In this document: in pieces, positions 42,414 through 50,718 of the stretch
Layout of the letters: every line of letters starts with the position of its first letter
Position numbering within the stretch: the first letter of the stretch is position 1
Origin: Nostocoides sp. Soil756
Lineage (GTDB): Bacteria > Actinomycetota > Actinomycetes > Actinomycetales > Dermatophilaceae
Direction: 5' to 3'
NCBI RefSeq assembly: GCF_001428065.1
Contig: NZ_LMSE01000007.1
Coordinates: 77,037 to 141,036, forward strand
DNA: 64,000 bases
Notes under the pieces: generated by a model
The model's input: only the letters and a program-made list of their open reading frames with translations
Database searches by the model: none
What the model was told of the DNA's origin: nothing
Made by a program: the position numbers and the translations under genes

Positions 42414-43445
<1,032 letters not shown>

Positions 43446-43609
43446 GACGACCTTCCTGTCGAGGGATGGGCAACAGGTAGGTCCAACGACGACACCAGCG
43501 CCGGTATGCCGGGCCCGCCGACCAGCGCGATGCCGTCGGCCGGGCCGACGTCCCGTGACACCCCCGAAAGGCCGGGCGTGCCCCGCGCGAGCGGGGGCGC
43601 CGGGGCTCC

Positions 43610-43801
43610 TCAGCCGTCGGTGCGGGCGACCTTCTCGGCCCGGATGCGCTCGACCCGCCGCTGCCGCTCGCGCAGCAGCTTCTGCTGGGGGTCCTCGGCC
43701 GTCCCGAGCTGCGCCGGCCCGAAGACACTCGTGGCGATGTAGCGGAACCGCCACCCCAGGCGGTACCCCAGGGACAGCCCCTCGACCTCAGCACGCGCCA
43801 T
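43610..43801 (-). CDS. Hypothetical protein
   Basis: 63 residues, very basic C-terminus (RERQRRVERIRAEKVAR). Starts MARAEVEGLSLGYRLGWRFR. I do not recognise a family. It is divergent from the MarR gene, across a region with an operator-like palindrome, so it may be part of that regulator's target unit. Confidence 0.55.
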   Translation of the reverse strand: MARAEVEGLSLGYRLGWRFRYIATSVFGPAQLGTAEDPQQKLLRERQRRVERIRAEKVARTDG

Positions 43802-43818
43802 GTCGACCCCTCGCCTTC

Positions 43819-43836
43819 AGTAAGTGCACTAAGTAT
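43819..43836. promoter_or_regulatory. Operator-like palindrome, MarR promoter
   Basis: AGTAAGTGCACTAAGTAT contains the palindrome AGTGCACT and lies between the divergent hypothetical and MarR starts, in an AT-rich island of otherwise GC-rich DNA. A MarR-family dimer site is likely. Confidence 0.5.
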
Positions 43837-43868
43837 TATGACGTGAACCTACCCGCACCGGTCCTAGG

Positions 43869-44348
43869 ATGGAAATCGTGACTCCGCCGCGATCGCCCTC
43901 GCCCCGCCCGGCCGAGGACGACCCGCTCGCCCTGGACCGCCAGGTCTGCTTCGCGCTGGCCGTGGCGTCGCGCAACGTCATCGGCCTCTACCGGCCGCTG
44001 CTCGAGCCCCTGGGCCTCACCCACCCGCAGTACCTCGTGATGCTCGCCCTCTGGGAGGAGGCGCCGCTGCGGGTCTCCGCGATCGCCGAGCGGCTGAGCC
44101 TCGAGCCGGCCACGCTCTCCCCCCTGCTGAAGCGCCTCGAGGCCGCCGGCCTCATCCGCCGGGACCGCGACCCACGCGACGAGCGGGTGGTGGCGGTGTC
44201 ATTGACCCCCACCGGGCGTCGGCTGCGGCGCCGAGCCGAGGGCATCCCCCCGGCCGTCCTGGCCCGGCTCGGGATGGACCTCGCCGAACTCGAGGACCTC
44301 CGAGACCGGCTGACCGGGCTGATCGCCGCCACCCGCCGCGCCCCCTGA
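43869..44348 (+). CDS. MarR/OhrR-family regulator
   Basis: 159 residues. Winged helix with LTHPQYLVMLALWEEAPL, SLEPATLSPLLKRLEAAGLI and wing DPRDERVVAV. A Cys in LDRQVCFALAVASR sits where the OhrR peroxide-sensing Cys is found, so organic-hydroperoxide sensing is plausible. Probably autoregulated through the 43819 palindrome. Confidence 0.85.
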   Translation: MEIVTPPRSPSPRPAEDDPLALDRQVCFALAVASRNVIGLYRPLLEPLGLTHPQYLVMLALWEEAPLRVSAIAERLSLEPATLSPLLKRLEAAGLIRRDRDPRDERVVAVSLTPTGRRLRRRAEGIPPAVLARLGMDLAELEDLRDRLTGLIAATRRAP

Positions 44349-44397
44349 ACCGGCATGGACCGGATTTCGCGCAGCCCTCCCCCCGCCGCTATCCTGG

Positions 44398-44494
44398 CGG
44401 CCGAAAGGGAGTAGTCCCCAATCGCCGTGTCGACACACTGACCTCCGGGTCCGGTGCGGTGGGCCACCTCGGGTGGCGGACGAGACTTTCGGCC
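44398..44494 (+). ncRNA. yybP-ykoY (Mn2+) riboswitch
   Basis: GGCCGAAAGGGAGTAG at 44399 and GGACGAGACTTTCGGCC ending at 44494 pair as P1 and carry the two conserved loops of the yybP-ykoY family, which senses Mn2+. The following leader (44512-44540) has a GAGGACGT/ACGTCCTC hairpin that could be the expression platform. It lies 80 bp before a UPF0016 metal exporter gene, the classic target. Confidence 0.87.
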
Positions 44495-44574
44495 AGCTCA
44501 CGACCATCTTTCGAGGACGTGTCCGGCCGAGACGTCCTCCCCAGGAACCTCGCCGGCCGCGAGGAGACCATCAC

Positions 44575-45153
44575 ATGAACGCCTTCCTGATCAGCACGGC
44601 CGTCATCTTCGTGGCCGAGCTCGGCGACAAGAGCCAGCTGATGGCCATGACGTTCGCGACCCGCTACCGGGTGCGCGACGTCCTCATCAGCATCACCGCC
44701 GCCACCGCCATCGTGCACCTGCTCTCGGTGGGCCTCGGCGCCCTGGTGGGAACCGCCTTCTCGCAGTACCAGGGTGCGATCTCGGTCGTGGCCGGCGTCG
44801 CGTTCCTGGTCTTCGCCGCCTGGACCCTGCGCGGCGACGAGCTCACCGAGGACGAGGCCGACAAGGCCCGCCGCAGCACCGGCGCCGCGCTGCTGGCCGT
44901 CGGCGGCGCGTTCTTCCTGGCCGAGCTGGGCGACAAGACGATGCTCGCCACCATCACGCTGGCCACCCAGGAGGGCTGGCTCGGCACCTGGATCGGCAGC
45001 ACCGTGGGGATGGTCGCGGCCGACGCGCTCGCGATCGGCGTGGGCGCCGTCCTGGGTCGCGCGCTGCCCGAGAAGGCCATCAAGTACGGCGCGTCTGCCG
45101 CCTTCGTGGTGTTCGGCCTGCTGCTCATCGGGCGGGGTCTCGGCTGGTTCTGA
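44575..45153 (+). CDS. UPF0016/GDT1 family Mn2+ exporter (MntX/MneA-type)
   Basis: 192 residues with six TM helices and two copies of the family motif E-x-G-D-K-(S/T), seen as VAELGDKSQL and LAELGDKTML. Members export Mn2+ or Ca2+. Preceded by the Mn riboswitch, which should turn it on when manganese is high. Confidence 0.92.
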   Translation: MNAFLISTAVIFVAELGDKSQLMAMTFATRYRVRDVLISITAATAIVHLLSVGLGALVGTAFSQYQGAISVVAGVAFLVFAAWTLRGDELTEDEADKARRSTGAALLAVGGAFFLAELGDKTMLATITLATQEGWLGTWIGSTVGMVAADALAIGVGAVLGRALPEKAIKYGASAAFVVFGLLLIGRGLGWF

Positions 45154-45193
45154 GGCCGGTCGGTACGGCGCCGGTCCGCCGGGGTCGCGACCC

Positions 45194-46360
45194 TCAGACC
45201 TCGAGGGGCGTGGCCAGCGCGCCGCCGCAGTGGTAGACGTCGGGGCGCCCGGGCCAGATGTGGCCGGCCTCGTGCATCCGGTCGTCGAGCTCGTTGCGCC
45301 ACGTCCCGGCCTCGTCGACCCAGTAGCGCGCCGCGTGGTCCCAGAGCCGGCGGTACCAGCCCTCCCAGTGCTCGTCCCCGGTGCGTCGCAGCAGGTACGC
45401 CGCGATCTGGATGCCCTCGCACACCGGCCAGTGCAGCCGCACGTCGGCCACGGGGGTGCCGTCCCAGTCGACGGTGTAGACCAGCCCCGGGCGCCCGTCG
45501 AGGCTCCAGCCGCCGTCGAGGGCTCGCCGGGTGAGCGCCTCGGCGGCCTCCGCCAGCCAGGGCGGCGACGCGACCAGGGGCGAGTCGTCGAGCTGGAGCA
45601 GGAAGCGGGCCCACTCGAGGGAGTGCCCGAAGGTCGCACCGTACGGCCGGAACGGGTGCATCGGCTCGTCGCGGTTGTAGTCGAGCACGACCTGCCAGTC
45701 GGGGGTGTAGTGCTCGGGCAGCAGCCAGCCGTGCTCGCGGGCCGCGCCGTCGATGAGGCGGGCGGCGACGGCCAGCCCGCGCTCGTGCCAGCGCGGTTCC
45801 TGCAGCGCGGTGCCCATGGCCAGGAACGCCTCGAGGCCGTGCATGTTGGCGTTGGCGCCGCGGTAGTCCTCGGAGTCGCTCCAGTCGGGAGCGAACGACT
45901 CCCGCAGGGCCTGCGCCTCGTCGTCCCAGAGGTGGGCGTCGACGACCTCGGCGACCTGCGCGAGGAGGCGCGCGGCCGCGGGGTGCCCGACCTCCAGGGC
46001 GGCGGCGGCGGCGAGCCCGACGTGGACGTGGTCGTAGGTCATCTTGCGGGTGACGCTGCCGGGCTCGCTGAGCCAGCCCCCGTGCTCGGGGTCGGCGTGC
46101 AGGCCGGTGAGCGAGGTCATCGCATGGTCGAGCAGCTCGCCCGCTCCAGGGATGCCGTGCCGTACCGCGATGGCCGCGACGTACCCCATCCGTGCCGTCA
46201 GGAACAGCTGCGGCGAGCGGCCGGGCAGCGGCTCCCCCGCGCCGTCGAGGTGGTGGAAGCCTCCCTCGGGCCGGATGGAGCGCAGCGAGAACGCGACGAG
46301 GTCGGCGAGGCCGCCCTCGAGCCAGGTGCGGTGGGCGGGGGTGTCGAGCCAGGACGTCAC
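45194..46360 (-). CDS. AGE-family epimerase/isomerase
   Basis: 388 residues from GTG 46360. An alpha6/alpha6 barrel of the N-acylglucosamine 2-epimerase family; conserved His/Arg motifs include GANANMHGLEAFLA, PYGATFGHSLEWARFLL and VYHCGGALATP. It most resembles sugar 2-epimerases acting on mannose or N-acyl sugars. Overlaps the upstream mutarotase gene by GTGA. Confidence 0.85.
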   Translation of the reverse strand: MTSWLDTPAHRTWLEGGLADLVAFSLRSIRPEGGFHHLDGAGEPLPGRSPQLFLTARMGYVAAIAVRHGIPGAGELLDHAMTSLTGLHADPEHGGWLSEPGSVTRKMTYDHVHVGLAAAAALEVGHPAAARLLAQVAEVVDAHLWDDEAQALRESFAPDWSDSEDYRGANANMHGLEAFLAMGTALQEPRWHERGLAVAARLIDGAAREHGWLLPEHYTPDWQVVLDYNRDEPMHPFRPYGATFGHSLEWARFLLQLDDSPLVASPPWLAEAAEALTRRALDGGWSLDGRPGLVYTVDWDGTPVADVRLHWPVCEGIQIAAYLLRRTGDEHWEGWYRRLWDHAARYWVDEAGTWRNELDDRMHEAGHIWPGRPDVYHCGGALATPLEV

Positions 46361-47184
46361 AGGTCCTCCACGGTGAGCCGGTAGGTGAGCGTGTGCGTGG
46401 CGCCGGGGGCCACGGTGACGACGTCGGCGAGGGCGTTGGCGGCCTCCACGCAGACGAAGCGCGGCCAGTGCGCGCCGATGTCGTCGATGCCGGCGGCCTT
46501 CTCGGACCAAGGGTTCCAGACCACCCGGTCGGCCGCACCGTCGGTCTCGACGACGAGCCGCCGCCCGAGCACCGGGTCGGTGATGACCACCGGTGCGGCG
46601 GAGCGGTACACGCGGTCGGTCTCGCCGGTGAGAACGAGGTCGCCCTCCTGCACCCGGTCCTCGCCCGCGACCTTGTCGTGGAAGGTCGCGCCGTCGAGAC
46701 CGCCCACCCGGACCTCGCGCACGTCGCCCACGGCCAGGTAGGCGTGCAGGGCCTCCCCCACGACGAACGGCTCGTCGCCGAGGTTGCTGGTGCTCAGGCG
46801 CAGGGTGAGCGAGGGCCCGAGGGTGACCTCGAGGTCGAGCCGGTAGGGGTGCGGCCACCAGGGGCTCGTGGCCTCGTCGGGCGTGAGGCGGTGGGTCACG
46901 GTGGCGACGTCGCCGTCGGTGATGGTGCCGCGGTACTGCCAGAGCGCGCCACGGGCGATGCCGTGGGCCGGCGCCTCCGGCTGCGGCCCCGGCCCGAACC
47001 ACGGCCAGCACACCGGGATGCCGGCGTGCGGCGGCATCCCGGCCTCGGATCCGGCGCCCGGAGGGGCGAACAGGACCGGGTCGCGGCCGGCGGGGGCCCA
47101 CCGCAACACCAGCGCCCCGGTGTCGAGCACCTCGGCCGTGCCGGCCGGGCCGTCGACGCGACGGGAGGTGGGGGGCGCGCTCAC
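46357..47184 (-). CDS. D-hexose-6-phosphate mutarotase
   Basis: 275 residues. Aldose-1-epimerase-like beta sandwich with PHAGIPVCWPWFG, AHGIARGALWQY and EALHAYLAVGDV, typical of YeaD-type glucose-6-phosphate 1-epimerases. It interconverts alpha and beta anomers. It is co-transcribed with the AGE epimerase, which suggests a joint sugar isomer pathway. Confidence 0.88.
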   Translation of the reverse strand: MSAPPTSRRVDGPAGTAEVLDTGALVLRWAPAGRDPVLFAPPGAGSEAGMPPHAGIPVCWPWFGPGPQPEAPAHGIARGALWQYRGTITDGDVATVTHRLTPDEATSPWWPHPYRLDLEVTLGPSLTLRLSTSNLGDEPFVVGEALHAYLAVGDVREVRVGGLDGATFHDKVAGEDRVQEGDLVLTGETDRVYRSAAPVVITDPVLGRRLVVETDGAADRVVWNPWSEKAAGIDDIGAHWPRFVCVEAANALADVVTVAPGATHTLTYRLTVEDL

Positions 47185-47223
47185 CCGCTCAACCTACCGG
47201 CGCCGACGACCGGCCCCAACGGC

Positions 47224-48285
47224 TCACGACGGTTCGGAACCGACCGTCTCGCGACGCGGGGCCGCATCGTCGTCCGTCCCGCCGGCCTCCGCTCTGCGCT
47301 TGGCCACCAGGCTGGTGACCGTGACCAGCGCCAGGATGCCGACGATGACGCCCAGCGAGGCCAAGGTAGGCACCTCGGGGGTGGCCGGCCAGACGCCGTG
47401 CGCCCAGTGCAGGACGAGCTTGACGCCGATGAACGCCAGGATGGCCGCGAGGCCGAAGCCCAGGTGCGCCAGGGCTCCGAGCAGGCCCTCGAGGACGAAG
47501 TACAAGGCGCGCAGGCCGAGCAGGGCGAAGGCGTTGGTGGCGAAGACCAGGTACGCGTCGCCGGTGATGCCGAAGACCGCCGGCACGGAGTCGACCGCGA
47601 AGACGATGTCGGTGCCGAGGATGGCGACGGTGACCAGCGCCAGCGGGGTGAGGGCGCGCCGGCCGTTCTCCATCACCGTCATCCGCGGGCCGCGGTAGTC
47701 CTCGACGACCGGGCGGACGCGGCGCAGCAGCCGGACCGTGCGCAGGCTGCCGATGTCGACGGCGGCCTCCTCGTGCGACAGGGCGTCACGCAGCACCTTG
47801 ACGGCGGTGACCAGGAGGACGGCGCCGAACAGGAGGAAGGTCCACGAGAAGGTCGCGATCATCTGCGCGCCCAGGGCGATGAAGACACCGCGCAGCACCA
47901 GCGCCCCCGCGACGCCGATGAGGAGGACCCGCTGCTGGAGCTCCTTGGGCACCGCGAAGGCGGTGAGCAGCAGCATGAAGACGAACAGGTTGTCGACCGA
48001 GAGCGACTTCTCGACGAGGTAGCCGGTGTAGTACTCGATCCCCCGGTCGCCGCCGTACCGACTCCAGACGAACACCCCGAACGCCAGCGGCAGCGCGATG
48101 TAGAAGGACGACCAGCCGACGGCCTCCTTCATCGAGACCTCGTGGGGCCTGCGGGTGATGACGAAGTCGAGGGCGAAGAGCAGCAGGACGCCGCCGATGG
48201 TGATCCCCCAGAGCAAGGGGGTCCCGACGGAGTCCTGGGCGGCGGCCGGCTGGACCGCCGCGAGCAGGGTGGGGAGGGTCGACAT
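47224..48285 (-). CDS. TerC/Alx family membrane protein
   Basis: 353 residues from ATG 48285, nine TM helices. The family residues are seen in EKSLSVDNLFVFMLLL and LGTDIVFAVDSVPAVFG, which contain the paired Asp needed for metal transport. Alx/TerC proteins export Mn2+ and aid metalation of secreted proteins. A leader RNA like the Mn riboswitch lies upstream, matching the UPF0016 gene 2 kb away. Confidence 0.9.
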   Translation of the reverse strand: MSTLPTLLAAVQPAAAQDSVGTPLLWGITIGGVLLLFALDFVITRRPHEVSMKEAVGWSSFYIALPLAFGVFVWSRYGGDRGIEYYTGYLVEKSLSVDNLFVFMLLLTAFAVPKELQQRVLLIGVAGALVLRGVFIALGAQMIATFSWTFLLFGAVLLVTAVKVLRDALSHEEAAVDIGSLRTVRLLRRVRPVVEDYRGPRMTVMENGRRALTPLALVTVAILGTDIVFAVDSVPAVFGITGDAYLVFATNAFALLGLRALYFVLEGLLGALAHLGFGLAAILAFIGVKLVLHWAHGVWPATPEVPTLASLGVIVGILALVTVTSLVAKRRAEAGGTDDDAAPRRETVGSEPS

Positions 48286-48311
48286 GGTGCTCCTCAGGGC
48301 GTGGTGGTGCT

Positions 48312-48419
48312 GTCCTGAGGTCTCCTTCACCGCCACCTGGCGGCGCCGTCCCGGGAGGACCATGGGGCCCTCGTACTGACCGGAACGAGCTTGGGAAGTA
48401 CTCCCCTCGTGCTCTCAGC
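48312..48419 (-). ncRNA. Putative second yybP-ykoY riboswitch (TerC leader)
   Basis: Read leftward, CTGAG at the 5' end pairs with CTCAG at the 3' end as P1. The 5' part has GAGGGGAGTACTTCCC and the 3' part GGTGAAGGAGACCTCAG, matching the conserved loops of the family in diverged form. It ends 27 bp before the TerC start. Confidence 0.65.
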
Positions 48420-48453
48420 GTACCCTCAGGCGCCGCGTCGCCCAAGTCCCGGC

Positions 48454-48488
48454 GCGCCACAACCTCGCACGTGCCGGGATGGTGCGCC
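48454..48488. repeat. 35-bp intergenic repeat, copy 1
   Basis: GCGCCACAACCTCGCACGTG and following bases to 48488. It contains the palindrome GCACGTGC and is flanked by GCGC-type inverted ends. A second copy with two differences begins 17 bp later. It could be a REP-like element; no other copy seen in the window. Confidence 0.65.
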
Positions 48489-48504
48489 ACCGCATCCCCT
48501 CCGA

Positions 48505-48539
48505 GCGCCACAACCCCGCACGTGCCGGGATCGTGCGCC
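48505..48539. repeat. 35-bp intergenic repeat, copy 2
   Basis: Same unit as 48454-48488 (two mismatches), between the photolyase stop and the TerC leader. Confidence 0.65.
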
Positions 48540-48553
48540 CGGCCGCCCGCGCC

Positions 48554-49921
48554 TCAGCGCCCCTTGACCGCCGCGAGCCGGTCGAGGGCCTCCTGGCGCT
48601 CAGCGGCGTGGTCGACGATCCGCTGCGGGTAGCCGTGCGCGTAGCCGTCGGCGTGCTCCCACGGCTGGTGCGCGGCCTTGCCGGGCAGGTGCCGCAGCTC
48701 GGGCACCCACCGGCGCACGTACTCGCCGTCGGGGTCGAACTTCTCGCCCTGCGTCACCGGGTTGAAGACGCGGAAGTACGGCGAGGCGTCGGTGCCGGTG
48801 CCGGCGACCCACTGCCAGCCGTGGTTGTTCGATGCCACGTCGCCGTCGGCCAGGTGGTCGAGGAAGTGCCGGGCCCCCACGGGCCACCACACGTGCAGGT
48901 CCTTGGTGAGGAAGCTGGCCGTGATCATCCGCACCCGGTTGTGCATCCAGCCCTCGGCCAGCAGCTGGCGCATCCCGGCGTCGACCACCGGGTAGCCGGT
49001 CTCGCCCTTCGTCCAGGCCTCGACGGCGTCCTCGGGCTCGTCGTAGCGCATGCCCTGCAGGGTCGGGCGCAGGTCGTGCCACGCGCTCCTGGGGTTGTGG
49101 TGCAGCACGTCGGCGTAGAACTCGCGCCAGGCCAGCTCGGTGCGGAACGAGTCGGCGCCCGTGCCGCTGCGCTCGCCCAGCTCGGCCAGCAGGGTGCGCG
49201 GGTGCACGACCCCCAGCTTGAGGTAGGGCGACATCCGCGAGGTGGCGTCGAGGGCCGGCCGGTCGCGGTCGTCGTCGTAGCCCGCGAGGTGGTCGTCGCG
49301 GAAGGCCCGGAAGCGGCGCAGCGCGGCCTCCTCCCCGGCTGCCGGCAGGGCCGGCAGGTCGGAGGCCGACAGCGCGGCGTCGAGGGCGGCGGTGGCGTCG
49401 GCGTCGTTGCGGGCGTGCCGCAGCGGCAGCTCGCGCGGGGTGGGTGCGGGGTCTGGCCAGCCGTGCCGGCGCCAGGCGCGTGCGAACGGGGTGAAGACCT
49501 TGTAGGGCTCGCCGGAGCCGTTGGTGACCAGGCCGGGGCCCACCGCGTAGGGCGTGCCGGTCTCCACCCACTCGACGCCGGACCCCAGCGCGTCGCGGAC
49601 GGTTCCGTCACGCCGCAGCCCCGCCGGGGTGGTCTCGCGCGAGACGTGCACGGACGTGGCCGACACCCGCCCGGCCAGCGCGGGCATCACGGTGCGGGGG
49701 TCGCCGTGCAGCAGGGTCAGCGCGCCCCCGAGGGACTCGTCCAGGGCGCGCAGGTTCGCGGCCAGCCAGGCCCGGCGCACCGGCCCGGCCCCGCCCCAGA
49801 GCCGCGGGTCGACGACGAACGCGACGACCAGGTCACCGTCCCCGGCGGCGTCCCGCGCAGCGAGCAGGGCGGGGTGGTCGCGCCGGCGCAGGTCGCGCCG
49901 GAGCCAGAGCACGGCGGTCAC
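48554..49921 (-). CDS. phr: Deoxyribodipyrimidine photolyase
   Basis: 455 residues from GTG 49921. The N-terminal alpha/beta domain starts VLWLRRDLRRRDHPAL. The FAD domain has ELAWREFYADVL, the conserved Trp and Asn motifs (EGWMHNRVRMITASFLTKDL, SNNHGWQWVAGTGTDASPY) and the Trp electron chain. Class I CPD repair is likely. It is the last gene of the leftward light-response cluster, 11 bp after the CPBP gene. Confidence 0.93.
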   Translation of the reverse strand: MTAVLWLRRDLRRRDHPALLAARDAAGDGDLVVAFVVDPRLWGGAGPVRRAWLAANLRALDESLGGALTLLHGDPRTVMPALAGRVSATSVHVSRETTPAGLRRDGTVRDALGSGVEWVETGTPYAVGPGLVTNGSGEPYKVFTPFARAWRRHGWPDPAPTPRELPLRHARNDADATAALDAALSASDLPALPAAGEEAALRRFRAFRDDHLAGYDDDRDRPALDATSRMSPYLKLGVVHPRTLLAELGERSGTGADSFRTELAWREFYADVLHHNPRSAWHDLRPTLQGMRYDEPEDAVEAWTKGETGYPVVDAGMRQLLAEGWMHNRVRMITASFLTKDLHVWWPVGARHFLDHLADGDVASNNHGWQWVAGTGTDASPYFRVFNPVTQGEKFDPDGEYVRRWVPELRHLPGKAAHQPWEHADGYAHGYPQRIVDHAAERQEALDRLAAVKGR

Positions 49922-49932
49922 GGGGACTCCTG

Positions 49933-50718
49933 TCAGCTGAGGCGATCGAGGACGACCGGGAGCAGGAAGAGCATCCCGAGCGACCAGGTGAGGTGGGTGA
50001 CGATGGGGCCGAGGATGCCGCCGGTGACTCGCCGCTGGAGGCCCACGACGAACCCCACCAGCGCCGCCGCGAAGACCAGGAGCGGGATGCCCGAGGTCGC
50101 GGTGACCAGCGCGTAGACGACGGTGGTGACCGCCACCGCGTGCTTGCGTCCGACCCCCGCATAGAGGGCGCCGCGGAAGTACAGCTCCTCGGCCACGCCG
50201 TTGACGGTCGTGACCACCGCGACCACGGCCAGCGACCCGTACCGGGCGTGGTCGAGCAGGGTCAGCACCGGGTCGCGCAGGAACGGGATGCGGGCCACCA
50301 CCACCGCGCCCGCGAGGAAGAGCCCCAGCAGCAGTACGCCCAGGGCGAGGGACTGCACGACGGCCCGGCTCTCGAGGTCGCCGTGCCGGGTGTGCCCGCG
50401 GCCGAGGTGCAGGGGGCCCGAGACGAAGGCGCCCACGGCCCACACGGCCGCCAGCGCGAAGGTGGCGACGTAGAACATCGGGTTGCCGGGTTCGATGCGC
50501 AGCGCCCAGGTGAGCAGGGCCGCACCCACGACCAGGGTGACGACCACCACGACGCGCCGGCGCCGGAAGGCCCAGTCGGGCTCGGTGTGGTCACGCGGCA
50601 CGGGGTCGACCAGGGCGGCCCGGACGAACGAGCGCAGCTCGGCCACCGGGTTCAGCCGTCCCCGGCCGGGAGCACCCGGGCCACCCCCGGCCCCGGGGGC
50701 GCGACCGCCGGCCGTCAC
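49933..50718 (-). CDS. CPBP family intramembrane protease
   Basis: 261 residues from GTG 50718, six to seven TM helices. The CPBP signatures EELYFRG (EExxxR) near residue 170 and the later FVVGLQRR and HLTWSLGML carry the metal-site residues of this Abi family. Function may be prenyl-protein processing or, in other members, bacteriocin immunity. GTGA overlap with the epimerase gene. Confidence 0.85.
   Translation of the reverse strand: MTAGGRAPGAGGGPGAPGRGRLNPVAELRSFVRAALVDPVPRDHTEPDWAFRRRRVVVVVTLVVGAALLTWALRIEPGNPMFYVATFALAAVWAVGAFVSGPLHLGRGHTRHGDLESRAVVQSLALGVLLLGLFLAGAVVVARIPFLRDPVLTLLDHARYGSLAVVAVVTTVNGVAEELYFRGALYAGVGRKHAVAVTTVVYALVTATSGIPLLVFAAALVGFVVGLQRRVTGGILGPIVTHLTWSLGMLFLLPVVLDRLS

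Follow-up and report, generated by a model that had tools for sequence, protein, structure and literature searches.

Leaders of the manganese riboswitch kind before a GDT1 and a TerC gene in Nostocoides sp. Soil756

A stretch of 64,000 nucleotides (nt) from the genome of Nostocoides sp. Soil756 (contig NZ_LMSE01000007.1, positions 77,037 to 141,036 of the forward strand; hereafter the window) carries, on opposite strands, a gene for a GDT1/UPF0016 family cation transporter and a gene for a TerC family membrane protein, each behind a structured leader. Comparative sequence analysis confirms that both leaders are structured, conserved RNAs belonging to the Mn2+ (yybP-ykoY) riboswitch class, and each is very probably a Mn2+-sensing aptamer that would turn its gene on at high Mn2+. 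A chance origin is excluded by motif conservation, covariation and the cross-matches of covariance models. Both genes belong to families of Mn export or metalation, as an initial annotation of the window had proposed: the GDT1 protein (192 amino acids, 44575..45153, +) matches PF01169 at 125 bits (E 1.3e-36), and the TerC protein (353 amino acids, 47224..48285, -) matches PF03741 at 152 bits (E 1.4e-44). These Pfam matches, together with the gene counts in the aligned rows given below, place the two RNAs as 5' leaders of Mn-homeostasis genes.

Conservation, covariation and cross-matching of the leaders

The TerC upstream set consisted of the window and 80 further loci, giving 81 regions of 330 nt upstream of the gene. 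The motif G[GA]GGAGTA was found in 77 of these regions (it is missing in L013, L025, L047 and L075) and is followed by C in 77/77 leaders. A TAnnnT hexamer begins 15-19 nt ahead of the motif in 76 of the 77, and its position suggests that transcripts probably begin near the aptamer. The putative -10-like hexamer of the window's TerC leader is TACGCT at 48417..48422 (-), and that of the GDT1 leader, read from the sequence in the place corresponding to TAnnnT of the TerC leaders, is TATCCT at 44390..44395 (+).

The structure was drawn by hand and includes the helices P1.1, P1.2, P3.1, P3.2 and P4. Across 49 TerC leaders, 90.3% of the cells were paired with a covariation score of 0.453, compared with at most 52.1% and 0.163 for slid partners. 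For 18 leaders of the GDT1/exchanger type, which have the same architecture, the corresponding values were 94.4% and 0.429 (slid partners at most 42.8% and 0.093). Helix 1 was paired in 99.5% of the cells in the TerC leaders and in 100% in the GDT1/exchanger-type leaders, and P1.2 of the TerC leaders, mostly CUUC/GAAG, reads CCCC/GGGG in several Nocardioides.

In the window, the GDT1 aptamer spans 44399..44494 (+), with 80 nt from its end to the ATG at 44575. It includes P1.1 (44399-44407/44486-44494), the L1 strands GGAGUA (44408-44413) and GAGA (44482-44485), P1.2 (44414-44417/44478-44481), P3.1 (44423-44432/44452-44461), L3 ACACACU (44433-44439, with the A41-like residue at 44435) and P4 (44463-44477). 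The TerC aptamer at 48408-48317 (-) lies upstream of the ATG at 48285 and includes P1.1 (48408-48405/48320-48317), GGAGUA (48404-48399) and GAGA (48324-48321) of L1, P1.2 (48398-48395/48328-48325), P3.1 (48386-48380/48354-48348), L3 UCAGUAC (48379-48373, with the A41-like residue at 48377), P3.2 (48372-48355) and P4 (48343-48330). The helix P2 was sought in both window leaders and is absent, so that each has a three-way junction.

Three covariance models were used: R1, built from TerC leaders only, R2, built from the 18 GDT1/exchanger-type leaders, and R3, built from ten of these 18, the other eight having been found via the Rfam model RF00080. The E-values of these models are rough, as the calibrations were short. 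R1 matched the window's GDT1 leader, which lies outside its training set, at 39.8 bits (E 9.4e-7), and four more GDT1 leaders (L004, L083, L084 and L085) at 34.5-44.9 bits. In the other direction, R2 matched the window's TerC leader at 41.7 bits (E 2.1e-8; top chance match 15.2 bits) and 16/16 of the other TerC-type leaders supplied (33.8-48.7 bits), and R3 matched the window's TerC leader at 39.8 bits (E 3.5e-8); neither model was trained on TerC leaders. Homology to experimentally studied members was found through all three models, R1 matching the Escherichia coli alx leader (40.6 bits, E 2.4e-8) and the E. coli mntP leader being matched by R2 (39.1 bits, E 1e-7) and by R3 (34.5 bits, E 9.8e-7). 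The yybP-ykoY RNA that the initial annotation saw before the UPF0016 exporter is thus upheld by the R1 match and the covariation, and by a partial RF00080 match.

When 103 rows were aligned to R1 and 93 to R2, GGAGUA was present in 103/103 and 93/93 rows, the 3' side GAGA of L1 in 95/103 and 92/93, and the C-A of L3 in 103/103 and 93/93, although this invariance is partly expected for rows selected by the models, which takes some weight from the counts. By alignment, the A is the equivalent of the Mn-contacting A41 of Lactococcus, the role of which has been described (PMC6754395, PMC9190785). Both window leaders have P1.1, the L1 strands GGAGUA and GAGA, and P1.2, and by alignment also an L3 of seven nucleotides, flanked by P3.1 and P3.2 and carrying the adenosine that contacts Mn.

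The two leaders represent different subtypes. Of the 196 rows, in which the window's own leaders enter more than once, 97 precede TerC, 80 GDT1, two Na_Ca_ex and two an ion channel gene, while 15 precede none of the four queries. In each of the 97 TerC rows GGAGUA is followed by C, U or A and L3 opens with U; a G after GGAGUA and an A opening L3 characterise the GDT1 rows (80/80) and the exchanger rows (2/2). The resulting patterns are GGAGUA-C/U/A with L3 UCAxxxC for TerC and GGAGUA-G with L3 ACAxxxU for GDT1, and E. coli splits likewise, alx having GGAGUA-A with UCAUUAC and mntP GGAGUA-G with ACAUACU. As the same split is seen across the rows and in E. coli, the TerC leader is a subtype and no decayed copy. 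The initial annotation had described it as a diverged version of the other leader; its class membership stands on the R2 and R3 matches, but the element is a conserved subtype rather than a diverged copy. The rows hold elements from 142 genomes, of which at least 36 have both subtypes, and in 0/36 are the two within 30 kb on one contig; the window's own pair is not counted among the 36, its GDT1 leader having been read from the window.

The spacing between L1 and L3 is 18-25 nt in 103/103 R1 rows and 18-21 nt in 91/93 R2 rows. The longer spacings of mntP (33 nt) and L143 (41 nt) account for the other two R2 rows, and P2 is present in both. L143:1482-1603 (-) is an actinobacterial element before a Na/Ca exchanger gene, and its P2 shows that the class includes both kinds of junction. 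In the crystal structures the aptamers form a four-way junction (PMC6754395, PMC11087558), and a three-way junction has been reported for Streptococcus mgtA (PMC9495176).

We tentatively suggest, as a possibility that we consider well short of an even chance, that the class might hold two old, functionally distinct sensors, often in one genome and each serving a single kind of target. One, the TerC/alx type without P2, would respond to the needs of metalation or to mild excess and the other, an exporter type, to toxic excess, the split would be older than the separation of Actinomycetota and Proteobacteria, and Rfam's current model would detect mainly the exporter type. The tie between subtype and gene family raises the question of whether the two aptamers have different metal set points in one cell. 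In the open-licence literature, where these subjects were looked for indirectly, we found no report of the two-subtype split or of Rfam's loss of actinobacterial members.

Proposed switching of TerC and GDT1

Translational ON switching appears the likeliest mechanism from the sequences and their predicted folds, and it is well supported for TerC and less clear for GDT1. Mn2+ bound between L1 and L3 would dock the two legs and steady the weak P1.1, and stabilisation of P1.1 by Mn2+ is the accepted step in the class (PMC6754395). Once P1.1 had closed, its 3' strand would be unavailable to CCUGAGG, which holds the Shine-Dalgarno sequence, and TerC would be translated. This anti-P1.1 segment (48298-48292, -) overlaps the Shine-Dalgarno GAGGAG (48295-48290, -), the two together covering 48290..48298, and is over its 7 nt a perfect complement of CCUCAGG at 48320-48314, the 3' strand of P1.1. 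The fold with the Shine-Dalgarno sequestered is more stable than the aptamer fold (-61.3 vs -51.4 kcal/mol), and TerC should therefore be off without ligand. An anti-P1.1 complement of at least 6 nt within 75 nt was found in 61 of the 77 TerC leaders compared with 9.5% in shuffles, and 53 of these 61 have Shine-Dalgarno-like purines and a start codon within reach.

Control of GDT1 probably runs in the same direction, by way of an expression platform that is less distinct. ViennaRNA folds point to a possible expression platform at 44525..44566 (+), in which GGCCGAGAC (44525-44533) could pair with the 3' strand of P1.1 and a hairpin at 44548-44564 would cover the Shine-Dalgarno GAGGAG (44561-44566). 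From what is known of the two families, the GDT1 product would then export Mn2+, and the TerC product would either export it or load it into secreted proteins.

The Rfam model and alternative readings

Several observations weigh against reading the two leaders as Mn2+-responsive switches. R1 performed poorly on three GDT1 leaders (L090 21.0, L095 17.4 and L086 14.8 bits, with a top chance match in the window of 19.1 bits), and no match was obtained with R1 on mntP or with R3 on alx. At its gathering cut-off Rfam reported nothing but a tRNA in the window; neither leader reached the gathering score of RF00080, and none of the 4227 Rfam models, a candidate terC motif included, gave a match at gathering for either leader or in 12 TerC loci of the 80 fetched. 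The permissive Rfam search returned a 35-nt, 13-bit RF00080 piece for the GDT1 leader and no RF00080 match for the TerC leader, and across 296 Actinomycetes genomes RF00080 gave 0 matches above the cut-off. The P2 helix and four-way junction, which are usual but non-defining in the class, are lacking in both window leaders. In three of the 12 genomes of the genus GDT1 is present but gave no GDT1-leader match, and in a sample of the order, where GDT1 occurs in 24/99 genomes, such a leader was detected before the gene in 9/24. With regard to the mechanism, 16 of the 77 TerC leaders have no anti-P1.1 complement of 6 nt, and RNA-seq in Vibrio gave no indication of termination at the leader (PMC13274385). 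Finally, for GDT1 ViennaRNA gives -82.5 kcal/mol both for the alternative fold and when P1.1 and P1.2 are enforced, and the fold with P1 enforced fails to give the comparative P3 and P4, which leaves the GDT1 platform uncertain.

The silence of RF00080 is nevertheless uninformative here, because the model undercalls the E. coli mntP and alx leaders as well as actinobacterial ones. Its gathering cut-off of 45 bits is a detection threshold and no biological trait. The mntP leader scores 41.6 bits, under the cut-off and uncalled at gathering, and the alx leader has no match at E<=1, although each has been reported to be a Mn riboswitch (PMC9603457); we have thus rejected Rfam as sole judge. In 11 of the 296 Actinomycetes genomes RF00080 reached E<=0.01. 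Nine of the 11 matches fall on leaders of GDT1 or Na/Ca-exchanger genes that carry the GGAGUAG motif, and the remaining two (L151 and L153) are chance-like. The initial annotation had named a missing covariance-model match for the TerC leader as the outcome that would refute its reading. Such a match is literally lacking for Rfam's model, which does not refute the reading, since the same model misses E. coli alx. Other Rfam matches in 43000-50000 (microRNA, snoRNA and similar) were far under the cut-off and were taken as chance, and the window's own genome has an RF00080 match at C3:16327 with 10.1 bits (E 2.3).

Among the alternatives, the one that survives best, unlikely as we consider it, is that the RNAs share the fold but that at least one of them responds to a divalent ion other than Mn2+, foremost Ca2+. 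The GDT1 and Na/Ca-exchanger families carry Ca2+, GDT1-type leaders also stand before Na_Ca_ex genes, the two subtypes are unlike around L3, and the Streptococcus mgtA aptamer of this kind is reported to have a Ca2+ affinity above that for Mn2+ (PMC9495176). However, A41, the base whose N7 gives the Mn2+ preference, is kept in every aligned row, the same gene pair is Mn-induced in Vibrio (PMC13274385), and E. coli alx, a relative of the TerC type, is reported to sense Mn (PMC9603457).

It is far less probable that the RNA before TerC, though conserved, has no relation to the class, being for instance another riboswitch class or a protein-binding attenuator, and resembles a Mn riboswitch at L1 only. 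The leader has no Rfam family at gathering and none plausible at E<=10, and its L3 departs from the Rfam consensus, but R2 and R3, built without TerC leaders, match it over the full model (E 2e-8 to 4e-8), and R1, built from TerC leaders only, matches E. coli alx, so that this explanation is largely refuted. Similarly remote is the idea that the leaders are functionless remnants, to which relatives having GDT1 without a leader and the shortened TerC leader of L075 (47.2 bits) could point, as the L1 and L3 core is kept in each window leader, each is matched by the other's model, and a TerC-type element is present in each of the 12 genomes of the genus.

Neighbourhood, spread and known systems

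The initial annotation had described a small manganese regulon flanking two sugar epimerase genes. Two elements were indeed found in the window's own genome (a 3.47 Mb assembly of 9 contigs, completeness 100%), where above chance R1 lists the TerC leader only and R2 the GDT1 leader only, other candidates reaching at most 15.5 bits. These searches were lossy, each scoring 150 candidates from a first look and each missing the other window leader, and the genome may hold further elements. The epimerases, on the other hand, give no sign of membership and were rejected as part of the regulon, as R1 and R2 found nothing above chance between the leaders and the neighbourhood is not kept beyond the genus. 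They are bystanders, one an aldose 1-epimerase family gene at 46357..47184 (-; PF01263, E 2.3e-32) and the other the in-between gene at 45198..46361 (-; ends approximate), initially annotated as a sugar epimerase and without a Pfam family at E<=0.001.

All 12 genomes of the genus carry a TerC-type element of at least 88 bits and a GDT1 gene, and nine of them also have a GDT1-type leader of at least 95 bits. In seven of these nine the two leaders are 3.9-6.5 kb apart on opposite strands, and in the other two they are 24 and 30 kb apart. Within flanks of up to 5 kb, the 80 TerC loci include the aldose-epimerase gene in five cases, the other in-between gene in four and GDT1 in three; proximity of the two leaders characterises this genus, and nothing links the epimerases to Mn. 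The same-genus GDT1 genes without a leader match are on G378:C29, G381:C14 and G385:C3. L003 is perhaps one of them, and the 330 nt read before its GDT1 contain no leader. These genomes represent an apparent natural loss of the switch.

The TerC protein of the window shares 79-83% identity with its counterparts in four Phycicoccus records and 73% with that in a fifth, which marks the organism as a Phycicoccus-like actinobacterium. Two exact copies of CGCACGTGCCGGGATNGTGCG (48466-48486 and 48517-48537), 51 bp apart, lie in the region that separates the TerC promoter from the photolyase gene; the expected number is 0.04, and two copies were reached in 1/100 shuffles.

Under strict filters, matches at E<=0.01 were obtained in 146 of the 296 Actinomycetes genomes with R1 and in 169 with R2, the two sets overlapping. 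Among the 150 places listed per model, there were 263 distinct places in 178 genomes, 37 of them common to both. Since RF00080 passes its cut-off in none of the 296 genomes, the class, with the TerC subtype to which E. coli alx also belongs, is largely uncalled by the standard model in actinobacteria, and the annotation of actinobacterial Mn homeostasis depends on such calls.

The wider searches also gave several individual observations. A second element of the same kind (28-39 bits) stands directly upstream of the TerC leader, on the other strand, at L081:4649-4768 (-), L119:1252-1365 (-) and L125:1707-1854 (+), and in L081 (Streptosporangium minutum) and L119 there is no clear gene behind it. 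TerC-type elements precede related proteins at L139, L189, L198 and L229, in four genomes; the L139 protein begins MSKLNRLFDLASKALDKG and has no Pfam family, and this is a possible new Mn-linked gene. TerC-type elements also stand before an ion channel gene at two loci, L135:267-1196 (-) (PF00520) and one more, and before a PGPGW membrane protein (PF09656) at L185:198-527 (+). Three very small Actinomycetes genomes of 1.4-1.5 Mb (L138, L141 and L142) have a TerC-type element before TerC.

Leaders of this class are already known from actinobacteria and beyond. The leader of cg2157 (terC) in Corynebacterium glutamicum was assigned to RF00080 with 49.13 bits using the then-current Rfam model and had an observed transcript (PMC3890552), a yybP-ykoY leader before terC of this species also appears in PMC4046766, and Mn riboswitches are reported to have been seen in RNA-seq work on Corynebacterium and Streptomyces (PMC8164766). 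In a 2013 survey, yybP-ykoY was assigned to over 75% of the taxonomic groups considered (PMC3766115). In Vibrio parahaemolyticus, mneA and terC are Mn-induced, each with a predicted yybP-ykoY before it (PMC13274385). This is the same pair of UPF0016-family and TerC genes behind this riboswitch as in the window, in another phylum. Unlike in the window, VP0023 and VPA0856 are not neighbours, and judging by their tags they are presumably on two chromosomes. The C. glutamicum case is alike by description, as an actinobacterial terC behind a yybP-ykoY leader.

The closest comparison for the TerC leader is E. coli alx, which precedes the gene annotated as the Mn2+ exporter Alx of the TerC family. 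In the R1 alignment, which covers the aptamer, it agrees with the TerC type in having GGAGUA-A in L1, L3 UCAUUAC, P1.1, P1.2, P3 and P4 and no P2, and differs by a longer P4 and lower G+C. E. coli mntP resembles the GDT1-type leaders in GGAGUA-G and L3 ACAUACU, but it has P2 (a spacing of 33 nt vs 18-25 nt) and serves a different exporter family. The window pair adds to this known riboswitch class, of which the three-way form was already known, and the under-annotated split into two subtypes is the part that deserves follow-up.

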